IMG/VR virus record: IMGVR_UViG_3300044681_000506
Span: 1 to 23,991 of that record
Length of the DNA stretch: 23,991 bases
Direction: 5' to 3' (one strand)
Source: a virus
In this document: in pieces, positions 14,323 to 16,782 of the stretch
Position numbering within the stretch: position 1 is the stretch's first letter
Layout of the letters: every line of letters begins with the position of its first letter
Position numbers and translations under genes: made by a program
Notes under the pieces: model-generated
What the model saw: the letters and a program-made list of their open reading frames with translations, nothing else
Database searches by the model: none
What the model was told of the DNA's origin: nothing

Positions 14323-16782
14323 TTAGGCTGTTTTCCAGTCGTTCGAACTGTTGTCTGCTTCCGCGCGGCGCGCGAACGCCCGGCGCCATTTGTCTGTCGG
14401 CGTGGCCTCAACCCGAGGTGCCCTGCCGCCCACCATTTTGTCCACCATGCGCCCAATGAGTCCGAGCGCGTCCACCTGGTCGTCGTGCCGCCCGGCCGGG
14501 AACGTGAGCAATTCGCCCATGAGATCCGCGACCCACGGCGCGTTGTGGGGGAGATAGACCTTCCCCATCGCGGCGCGAGCCTGGAATGACCGCGCCCGCG
14601 TTGGCTTGTCTGCCACGCTCGTCATCTGCTCTTGTGCGCAGTAGACGCGGCGCTCGCGCATGCGGCGGTCGATAAACGGGCCAAGGCTTTTGATGATCTG
14701 CCCCGACTCTTGCGCCCACATCAGCGGCTTCCAGCGGGCAATCAGATCGATGTAGGCGTCTACCCAATGGTGCGTTTCCGCCTGGGACCGCCACACGTCG
14801 ATGATGAATATGTTGTCGTCTGGATCGACCCCGGCGACGACGTGCACCGTGTAGTCTCCCCCTTTAGCCGTCACCGCGTAGTCGCTAGCCCCGTAGGTGC
14901 GGAGGTTCGTTGGCATCGCGTCGTAGAACCGGAACCATTCGCGCTTGAAGTAGGCGCCCTCGTCTGGCGTCGGCCGCTGCTGGTACAGCGCGGACCAATC
15001 GCGGATTGGAAGAACCTTGCGGTATCGCTCCAGCGTTTCAATCGGGTAGAACTCAGGCCAAAGCGCTTCGCCGTTGTCGTTGATGGCGGGAAGCTCCAGC
15101 TTCTCCCACTTGTCGCCGCCGCGCTCTTCTTCCGCGATAAGGCGCCCGGACAGGTCGTCGGCGTGCCATCGTGTCTGGATCAGTATCACGCGCCCGCCCG
15201 GCGCCAGCCGCGTGTAGGCCGTTGACGTGTACCAGTCCCAAACCTTTTGGCGCTGGAGCTCGCTGTCCGCTTCCTCGCGATCCTTCAGCGGATCGTCGAT
15301 CAACAGGCAGTTGTGGACCAATACGCCGTTGGCGAAAAGGTTGTGGTTCCCTTCTACTTGGATGTCATAGACAACGGTTTCTTGGCGTACTCGCTCAACC
15401 AAGGCCACAACGTCACGGACGGCTTTGAATCCTTCGCCCCGTGCCACTTCCGATGGCATGGGGAACACAATGTTACTAGGTTCGATGCTGCGTTGTTCAT
15501 TGGCCAGTTGTCGATGTGATGCACTTCGAGACGCTTCCCGGATGCCGAACACACGACGCAAGCGTGGCCATCCCGCTCCAGGATAAGGGGACGCACAATC
15601 CTGAACGCTTTCGCTGAATGAGGCTGCTCCCGCAAAGGCGTAGCCCCATGCTTCCACTTGGGGTTCCCCTTTGCCGACATTCGCCGCGAATGCGCACGTT
15701 CGGCGCACGCCTTGCTGCAATACGTGGCGTGCTTTCCTGCCGATTTCCCGCGCCAAGCCGCCAGAAACTCGTTGTTGCACATGGGGCATGACTTCAAGAC
15801 CGGAGGATAAACTGCGGCCCTGCCCTTTGGTTTCGGCCTGCACGGCGGGCAATATACGCGCCCGCGCTTTGCCACCGGCCCACCACACGCCTTGCACGCC
15901 GATCTGTTTTTGATCGCGTGGTGCGCTTCCGAGCACTCTTTGCTGCAATAAGCGTCTACGTGCCCGCGCTCGATACTCTTGCGGTATTGGTAACCCGGCC
16001 GCGTGTACGTCTTCTCGCAGCGCGCACACGATAATATCACCGGGGGCAACATGATCCGCTGGGACGTATCGTCCGCCAACGTAGACAGGATGGTTTCCCG
16101 TAACTTCAACCACTCGTCCGGACTGAGTGGTGATCCTGTAAAGCCCATCCGCCGTGCGGCTTGCGACAGCTTGCAGGCTTTTATATTCAAGTCTCCCATT
16201 TGCCTCCGAGTAAGACAGGATTTTGCAGTCTTTAATATACTGCAATTCGTCTACTCGAACATCTCCGAAGTTTGTTGCGACCAGCGTCCAAGGCGCGAGG
16301 CAATCCGCGCCACGGCCAGTGATCGCCGTCCCGACACCTGCTGCGACGTAACCACCGCCCTCCGCTGTATTCCAGCGGTTTGCGGCCCGGCTGTCTTCCG
16401 CAAGCTCAGTCTTGAAAATGGCCTTGTATTCTTCGGCAGCGATGATGTTGCGCACCTGCCTGCCGAAGTCGGTCGCGAGATCGCTGTTGTAGCTCGCGGC
16501 GATGATGCTCTTGCCCGGATGCCGCCCGAGGAACCACGCCGGGAACCGCCTTGACGCCAACTCCGATTTCCCATGGCGTGGCGGCATGTTGATCATGAGG
16601 CGGTCAATTTCACCGCGCTCGATGGCTTCCAGCTTTTCAGCAATCGCCTTGTGATGCGCGGCTGGGACGTACCAATCGCACGTCGCTTCAGTGAACCGGA
16701 CCAGACTCTCCTGCGCCCGCTTCCGCTCCAGCAGTTCCCTCAGCACCTCCCTCTTCTGCAAGGATGGCTTCAAGCTCTGCAA
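14323..16782 (-). CDS. terL: Terminase large subunit interrupted by an intein
   Basis: The 819-codon frame begins with TTG at 16782, with AAGGA eight bases upstream; a GTG at 16746 is an alternative. It overlaps terS by 95 bases. Residues 1-160 form the N-terminal ATPase half, with Walker A PPRHGKSE at 67-74 and the adenine/coupling region to GTAITGRGAD. Residues 161-491 are an intein. The ATPase resumes with C492 and Walker B LLIDDP at 493-498, followed by the motor and the C-terminal nuclease (YGASDYAVTAKGGDY, QESGQ, HDDQVDALG). Removal of the intein leaves 488 residues, the usual TerL size. The protein translocates and cuts DNA into the procapsid. Splicing is presumably required for packaging, because the intein splits the ATP site. 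Confidence 0.93.
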   Translation of the reverse strand: MQSLKPSLQKREVLRELLERKRAQESLVRFTEATCDWYVPAAHHKAIAEKLEAIERGEIDRLMINMPPRHGKSELASRRFPAWFLGRHPGKSIIAASYNSDLATDFGRQVRNIIAAEEYKAIFKTELAEDSRAANRWNTAEGGGYVAAGVGTAITGRGADCLAPWTLVATNFGDVRVDELQYIKDCKILSYSEANGRLEYKSLQAVASRTADGLYRITTQSGRVVEVTGNHPVYVGGRYVPADHVAPGDIIVCALREDVHAAGLPIPQEYRARARRRLLQQRVLGSAPRDQKQIGVQGVWWAGGKARARILPAVQAETKGQGRSLSSGLEVMPHVQQRVSGGLAREIGRKARHVLQQGVRRTCAFAANVGKGEPQVEAWGYAFAGAASFSESVQDCASPYPGAGWPRLRRVFGIREASRSASHRQLANEQRSIEPSNIVFPMPSEVARGEGFKAVRDVVALVERVRQETVVYDIQVEGNHNLFANGVLVHNCLLIDDPLKDREEADSELQRQKVWDWYTSTAYTRLAPGGRVILIQTRWHADDLSGRLIAEEERGGDKWEKLELPAINDNGEALWPEFYPIETLERYRKVLPIRDWSALYQQRPTPDEGAYFKREWFRFYDAMPTNLRTYGASDYAVTAKGGDYTVHVVAGVDPDDNIFIIDVWRSQAETHHWVDAYIDLIARWKPLMWAQESGQIIKSLGPFIDRRMRERRVYCAQEQMTSVADKPTRARSFQARAAMGKVYLPHNAPWVADLMGELLTFPAGRHDDQVDALGLIGRMVDKMVGGRAPRVEATPTDKWRRAFARRAEADNSSNDWKTA
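15354..16199 (-). CDS. HNH homing endonuclease nested out of frame in the intein
   Basis: The 281-aa frame is +1 to terL. ATG 16199 (MGDLNIKACKLSQAARR) has GGAGG three bases upstream; ATG 16052 (MLPPVILSCARC) is an alternative start that begins where the Hint N-part ends. The protein has three zinc-ribbon-like modules: C58/C61 with C85/C89, C102/C105 with C117/C120, and C138/C141 with C161/C165. A GNPKWKHG linker follows, then a typical HNH domain: ERDGHACVVC, LEVHHIDN (H228), N240 and LCSPCHRKWH (H249, H253), with C214/C217 and C245/C248 as zinc ligands. The HNH core ends level with terL-frame residue 447, just before the C-terminal Hint half. It would be expected to cut intein-less terL, allowing homing. 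Independent translation is supported by the GGAGG; a +1 frameshift from terL is an alternative. Confidence 0.88.
   Translation of the reverse strand: MGDLNIKACKLSQAARRMGFTGSPLSPDEWLKLRETILSTLADDTSQRIMLPPVILSCARCEKTYTRPGYQYRKSIERGHVDAYCSKECSEAHHAIKNRSACKACGGPVAKRGRVYCPPCRPKPKGRAAVYPPVLKSCPMCNNEFLAAWRGKSAGKHATYCSKACAERAHSRRMSAKGNPKWKHGATPLREQPHSAKAFRIVRPLILERDGHACVVCSASGKRLEVHHIDNWPMNNAASNLVTLCSPCHRKWHGAKDSKPSVTLWPWLSEYAKKPLSMTSK
16203..16207 (-). promoter_or_regulatory. Shine-Dalgarno of the nested HNH gene
   Basis: On the minus strand CGGAGGCAAATG gives a perfect GGAGG with 3 bases to the ATG at 16199. The spacing is shorter than ideal. The site lies inside intein coding sequence, where it encodes part of YSEANG. 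It supports separate initiation of the endonuclease. Confidence 0.5.

Follow-up and report, generated by a model that had tools for sequence, protein, structure and literature searches.

Can one stretch of viral DNA encode protein splicing in one reading frame and homing in another? The question is raised by the terminase large subunit gene (terL) of IMGVR_UViG_3300044681_000506, a viral sequence from a metagenome-type contig, of which positions 1-23,991 were studied (this whole stretch of 23,991 nt is referred to as the window). A preliminary description of the locus had placed an HNH endonuclease out of frame inside a TerL intein. The reading favoured here, to which we give a probability of about 0.8, is that of a mobile intein with its homing endonuclease encoded as an overlapping, out-of-frame gene; there are no expression, splicing, cleavage or homing data.

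A Hint domain and an HNH protein in overlapping frames

The terL frame and its parts were delimited as follows (a slash marks an intein insertion site or junction).

16782-14323, minus strand: terL open reading frame with intein, TTG start, 819 aa, uninterrupted; matches Pfam Terminase_6N/6C and PHROG terminase large subunit (1e-117)
16782-16303, minus strand: N-extein of TerL
16302-15310, minus strand: intein, 331 aa, from C1 to HN and followed by a +1 Cys, sited in TerL Walker B (GRGAD/CLLIDDP)
16302-16009, minus strand: Hint-N half (intein residues 1-98) with C1 and block B (TGNH); AlphaFold2 pLDDT mostly about 90; C1, T68 and H71 invariant
16008-15445, minus strand: disordered loop in the terL frame (residues 99-286), pLDDT about 33, a shadow of the HNH code
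15444-15310, minus strand: Hint-C half (residues 287-331) with blocks F and G (VYDIQVEGNHN...VHN); D313, H330 and N331 invariant
15309-14323, minus strand: C-extein of TerL

In Pfam the terL frame matched Intein_splicing (E 5.7e-15) together with Terminase_6N and Terminase_6C, and in NCBIfam both intein_Nterm and intein_Cterm were matched. The junctions, GRGAD upstream and CLLIDDPLKD downstream, make up the Walker B motif of TerL. The sequence criteria of a class 1 intein (blocks A, B, F and G, Cys1, TxxH, a C-terminal HN and a +1 Cys/Ser/Thr) were met, as was the criterion of site, an in-frame position at a conserved site of an essential protein, which is empty in Pam1. The Hint catalytic residues C1, T68, H71, D313, H330 and N331 were invariant across 15 related inteins. 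AlphaFold2 assembled residues 1-98 and 287-331 of the intein into a Hint fold and left residues 99-286 disordered, and a Foldseek search with this model matched the DnaX and DnaB mini-inteins with target-normalised TM-scores of 0.85-0.86. The Hint splicing domain with blocks A, B, F and G that had been claimed for the terL frame is thus supported by Pfam, NCBIfam, invariant residues and the predicted fold. Judged by sequence and structural model, the terL insertion is a class 1-type intein, and its splicing is inferred from the intact catalytic residues and the fold.

The observation that the central codons of the intein lack an endonuclease motif stood, with their length refined from about 200 to about 188 codons (residues 99-286). 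A Pfam search of the host-frame loop matched no domain, and a functional host-frame domain was ruled out on this ground, on the AlphaFold2 disorder and on a conservation that is accounted for by the HNH code. A self-splicing group I or group II intron was also excluded, since the Rfam intron search gave no match to a group I/II ribozyme core at E <= 1.

The +1 frame of the same DNA holds the following features.

16207-16203, minus strand: Shine-Dalgarno-like GGAGG, 3 nt before the HNH ATG at 16199
16199-15354, minus strand: nested HNH endonuclease open reading frame, 281 aa, +1 frame relative to terL; AlphaFold2 mean pLDDT 79.5
16028-15933, minus strand: zinc module 1, Cys pairs C58-C61 and C85-C89, from the alignment
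15896-15840, minus strand: zinc module 2, Cys pairs C102-C105 and C117-C120, from the alignment; missing from some distant members
15788-15705, minus strand: zinc module 3, Cys pairs C138-C141 and C161-C165, from the alignment
15560-15441, minus strand: HNH domain (residues 214-253), Pfam HNH 2e-5, with H227, H228, N240, H249 and zinc Cys 214/217/245/248

Profile searches with the +1-frame protein matched Pfam HNH at 2e-5, which is above the cutoff, the IscB HNH region, and HNH endonuclease families of PHROG (7.8e-29). Sequence profiles were used for the assignment because no structure matched the HNH model in Foldseek at E <= 0.001. All of the catalytic and zinc residues of the HNH domain listed above were invariant in 18 homologues, and the motif criterion of an HNH homing endonuclease (HNH motif, zinc Cys pairs, catalytic His/Asn) was met. 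Each frame therefore matched its own family in the profile search, Intein_splicing for one and HNH for the other, and the complete HNH protein with zinc modules proposed for the +1 frame at 15354-16199 was recovered by Pfam, PHROG and the alignment. The HNH gene runs from intein residue 35 to about 316, overlapping the loop and both Hint halves (about 64 codons of Hint-N and about 30 of Hint-C).

How the HNH protein would be translated is a matter of inference. The duplex energy of the GGAGG was -8.9 kcal/mol against a background mean of -2.8 and a 5% quantile of -7.2, with a short spacing to the ATG (3 nt). Many members of the group to which the window belongs carry a stop in the HNH frame just ahead of the conserved start, at a distance of only a few codons. 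Ribosomal +1 frameshifting from the terL frame, giving a fusion of TerL-N, Hint-N and HNH without an independent start, could be envisaged from the +1 relation, which is constant across the loci, and from the weak Shine-Dalgarno sequence of some relatives. However, the upstream stops would leave a very small slippage window, the window itself has a strong GGAGG before its ATG, and the fusion would be made at a cost to TerL. We regard frameshifting as improbable; the upstream stops and the GGAGG favour internal initiation. Independent translation of the HNH gene nevertheless stays inferred, because several relatives (L002, L003 and L010) do not have a good ribosome-binding site.

Distribution of the layout and selection on both readings

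Homologous TerL inteins and other loci of the same layout were sought with the HNH protein, its alignments and the intein as queries; a locus was accepted where Hint-N and Hint-C lay in one open frame and flanked a match to the HNH family. The layout was found in 76 loci, 44 of them non-redundant (<90% HNH identity), and the HNH frame was +1 in 44/44 of the latter. None of the 76 loci had its HNH in frame. As the searches began from this HNH protein and this intein, the set is not an unbiased census of inteins. Going by these loci, the arrangement is a large family and not a one-off, and the homologues conserve the +1 frame, the lack of which would have refuted the preliminary description. Among these loci are those of Gordonia phage Clown and Synechococcus phage S-EIVl, and one on a Streptomyces glaucescens contig. 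Clown and S-EIVl are annotated at this locus as terminase only, and they were the only two cases of the layout under a terminase annotation among 50,697 phage records searched with three HNH proteins of this family and one more distant. The insertion site is TerL Walker B in most hosts; other sites or host proteins are used in L107, L121 and L026/L029.

Several loci departed from this pattern. L129 (2965-3873) has an intein with a nested +1-frame nuclease of DUF559/MTES_1575, a restriction-endonuclease-like fold and not an HNH, and no stop interrupts its host frame, where 9.3 were expected. In L128 (2254-3147) the protein nested in the intein is an HNH_3 read in the +2 frame, with 0 host-frame stops against 4.0 expected. 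The TerLs of L003 and L010 carry a second intein C-terminal to the Walker B intein (..QC LTGDT.. to ..SHN/TRWHEDDL).

The number of stops expected in the host frame was obtained by resampling the synonymous codons of the HNH gene in 2000 trials and counting host-frame stops. For the window 11.4 host-frame stops were expected and 0 are present, a result reproduced in 0/2000 trials; the count in the other alternative frame, 12, is close to its expectation of 12.3. Nested loci of the relatives likewise had 0 host-frame stops, where 3-18 were expected in most, and free-standing HNH relatives and endonuclease genes lying between split-intein halves had about as many as expected. The avoidance could be traced to single codons: pooled over 44 inteins, 0/1048 NNY codons standing before AA, AG or GA ended in T, compared with 1753/3763 in other contexts and 176/256 before AA/AG/GA in free-standing relatives. 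An open host frame by chance is ruled out by this T avoidance and by the 0 stops against 11.4. Enumeration of the code with the host frame at HNH +2 found no stop that is unavoidable, NNT being always replaceable by NNC; in the other frame a stop cannot be escaped wherever Met precedes I, K, M, N or T. The host frame can thus be kept open without cost to the endonuclease, because a silent T-to-C change removes every stop. This NNY rule favours the +1 frame and does not force it, as is seen from L128 (+2) and from the third frame reported for the ShiLan domain (PMC11855218); +1 as a universal outcome of the rule is contradicted by the same two cases. The constancy of +1 within this HNH family may reflect common ancestry.

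Constraint on the host frame was assessed in nine divergent members by comparing its identity with the level that results when the same HNH proteins are recoded with randomly chosen synonymous codons, and the reverse test was applied to the HNH frame. Tests of identity excess were used in place of dN/dS, a ratio without a clear definition where frames overlap. Host-frame identity was in clear excess only at 16172-16038 and 15452-15357 and lay close to the shadow expectation in between, while HNH identity was in excess along the whole open reading frame, both ends included. Codon position 3 of the HNH frame was most divergent in the core. Two segments had excess identity in both directions.

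16172-16038, minus strand: 5' doubly constrained segment, Hint block B region and HNH N-terminus
15452-15357, minus strand: 3' doubly constrained segment, Hint block F region and HNH C-terminus

As the HNH protein is constrained throughout 15354-16199 and the Hint domain at its ends only, about 230 nt are constrained in both frames. By these identity comparisons the central terL-frame sequence is a by-product of the HNH code and not itself selected. Profile and constraint tests agree in placing splicing and endonuclease functions in overlapping frames of one DNA stretch.

A sequencing frameshift that had displaced an in-frame HNH domain was the refutation foreseen for the nested layout, and the origin of the window in a metagenome-type viral contig lends it some initial plausibility. 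A single frameshift, however, could not keep both Hint halves in frame, and two compensating assembly or sequencing errors would be required at the same places in 76 loci, among them the isolates Clown and S-EIVl and a bacterial genome, that of Streptomyces. Moreover, silent avoidance of stops cannot arise from errors. We consider this explanation refuted.

Spread and decay of the intein

Evidence that the nested gene moves with its intein comes from comparisons with the host protein. Between L003 and L005 the HNH proteins are 81% identical, the Hint domains 65% and the TerL exteins 29% (HNH 82% and TerL 37% by local alignment); an HNH some 81% identical inside TerLs 29% identical indicates that the intein unit moves. 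In AU tests the clade seen for HNH was rejected by the TerL data (p-AU 1e-57), and the clade of TerL was rejected by the HNH data. The mobility criterion of an HNH homing endonuclease, a spread independent of the host gene tree, was met. Pooled rank correlations of identity were 0.33 for HNH with Hint and 0.19 for HNH with extein; the first is modest, so that some exchange of HNH genes from one intein to another, or else noise where identity is low, is likely. An empty site (TGRGAD/IALIDDP) is seen in the nearest isolate TerL, that of Pam1.

It could also be argued that the HNH gene does not home this intein, being either a parasite of it (a homing endonuclease gene that invaded the loop of a mini-intein) or a terminase-linked packaging protein. 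Members of the same HNH family do occur free-standing and in methylase and PolA genes without a Hint domain, and phage HNH proteins encoded beside the terminase can act in packaging, according to literature listed in PMC12613952. The joint movement of HNH and Hint into different TerLs in L003, L005 and L013 speaks against both versions, and the close TerL of Pam1, having no intein, indicates that the HNH protein is not required for packaging. The pattern of decay described below also fits a homing cycle. Neither the parasite nor the packaging protein can be dismissed outright, and together they retain little weight against a separate HNH enzyme that spreads the intein, which is probably its role, homing itself being inferred.

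In L013 and L022 the HNH frame contains stops while the host frame is open, and L048, L108, L111, L120 and L126 have shortened inteins with HNH remnants. Read from their sequences, the stops and the shortened inteins are decay stages of the kind predicted by the homing cycle. L048 (1-2568) has in addition a TerL Walker A intein that resembles the in-frame endonuclease type, beside a Walker B intein in which the nested HNH is mostly deleted. Such relatives, whose HNH frame is broken by stops or deletions, might suggest that the HNH frame of the window is itself a decaying fossil without present function. Against this, the open reading frame in the window is unbroken, none of its catalytic or zinc residues has been lost, and across the family constraint on the HNH frame extends over the full length; a fossil is very hard to reconcile with these data, and a functional homing endonuclease gene remains the preferred reading.

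The mechanism that we propose has the following steps. Translation of terL would give a TerL whose Walker B motif is interrupted by the intein. From the two ends of the intein the Hint fold would form; it would accommodate a loop of about 188 disordered residues and self-splice, as inferred from the catalytic residues and the fold. On the same transcript, initiation at the internal ATG (16199) would yield a separate zinc-ribbon/HNH protein of 281 aa, for which the evidence is the GGAGG and the start codon. This enzyme would cut an intein-less terL at or near the insertion site, a step inferred from the TerL-independent spread, the target site being unknown, and repair of the cut terL would copy the whole intein with both genes. 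Selection acts on both readings, on HNH at full length and on Hint at its two ends, and freedom from stops is all that the middle of the Hint frame needs, as the tests above demonstrated. More speculatively, we entertain as a possibility for which the case is still incomplete that such elements form a widespread, undescribed class of dual-coded inteins. In these, overlapping splicing and homing genes would home as one unit, with about 230 nt doubly constrained and silent stop avoidance holding the host frame open in the only same-strand frame that always allows it. The class would include nucleases of other folds (DUF559/MTES_1575 in L129) and would decay to mini-inteins.

Comparison with known systems

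Inteins in the ATPase domain of TerL are known from the mycobacteriophage TerL1-b and TerL1-c, for which splicing and cutting of intein-less terL have been demonstrated (PMC5050341). They share with the window a Hint intein in this domain. In contrast, the mycobacteriophage inteins contain their endonuclease as an in-frame domain, and none is in frame in the window and its relatives (76 loci). A canonical in-frame endonuclease intein was excluded for the window since its HNH is in the +1 frame and its in-frame loop is disordered. Group I introns with HNH open reading frames likewise have an endonuclease gene inside a self-removing element of a phage gene. In the window, however, removal would be at the protein level by Hint, the host frame has no stops, and Rfam gave no match.

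Split inteins with an endonuclease gene between their halves have reportedly been described in fractured genes (Dassa et al., 2009). The likeness lies in the endonuclease as a separate open reading frame between Hint-N and Hint-C. In split inteins, though, the host frame is interrupted and splicing occurs in trans, whereas the window has one open frame; its uninterrupted 819-aa terL frame and the stop counts given above rule out a split intein. L147, L148 and L166 are RNR-type split inteins with GIY-YIG or other endonuclease open reading frames between the halves and many host-frame stops, and they served as negative controls for the stop counts.

A close precedent is that of the ShiLan domain and the Pacc40 gp60 insertion, in which an HNH lies out of frame in a phage methylase without a splicing domain (Arsenault, Gosselin and Gogarten 2025, PMC11855218). 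As in the window, a stop-free insertion in the host frame encodes a zinc-finger HNH in another frame, and the distribution is disjunct and homing-like (PMC11855218). The ShiLan insertions differ in having no detectable splicing domain, in using the third frame and in being confined to the methylase (PMC11855218), whereas the insertion in the window is a full Hint intein and its HNH gene overlaps the Hint halves too. With a splicing domain beside its out-of-frame HNH, the window fails the criterion of a ShiLan-type insertion. Copies of the same HNH family were found out of frame and without an Intein_splicing match, and thus ShiLan-like, in L049, L051, L054, L060, L064, L067 and L070, the hosts being methylase genes and, in L060, a DNA polymerase A gene. 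On account of these Hint-less relatives, ShiLan and the nested inteins are probably connected. L052 (2208-4631), a methylase with a nested HNH and with intein-like ends (C...GN/S) that Pfam Intein_splicing does not detect, is possibly a link between ShiLan-type and Hint-type elements.

The ShiLan paper cites, for overlapping frames, a 2025 preprint by Gosselin, Arsenault and Gogarten on actinobacteriophage inteins of non-canonical architecture (bioRxiv 10.1101/2025.01.02.630785), which from its title and that citation alone may describe actinophage members of the nested-HNH intein class (PMC11855218); the window and most of its relatives are not actinophage isolates. In the open-access full-text literature, subscription papers and preprints being outside its scope, no title or abstract on a Hint intein with an overlapping out-of-frame endonuclease was found. 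Novelty is lessened by the ShiLan precedent and by the preprint; at the level of sequence the layout is real, general and well supported.

The layout offers a clean example from nature of gene overlap governed by a rule that can be measured, silent T-to-C stop avoidance, and tested directly by recoding, and Hint domains that accept disordered inserts of about 190 aa would have practical use. The nested HNH gene is invisible to standard annotation, as in Clown and S-EIVl, so that nucleases may lie concealed in large 'mini-inteins' and in odd, disordered inserts of phage proteins. The endonuclease would be freed from the splicing precursor and yet stay tied to the intein, since parting the two would destroy one reading or the other. 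Such an arrangement would be a third way to join protein splicing with homing, beside in-frame endonuclease domains and split inteins.
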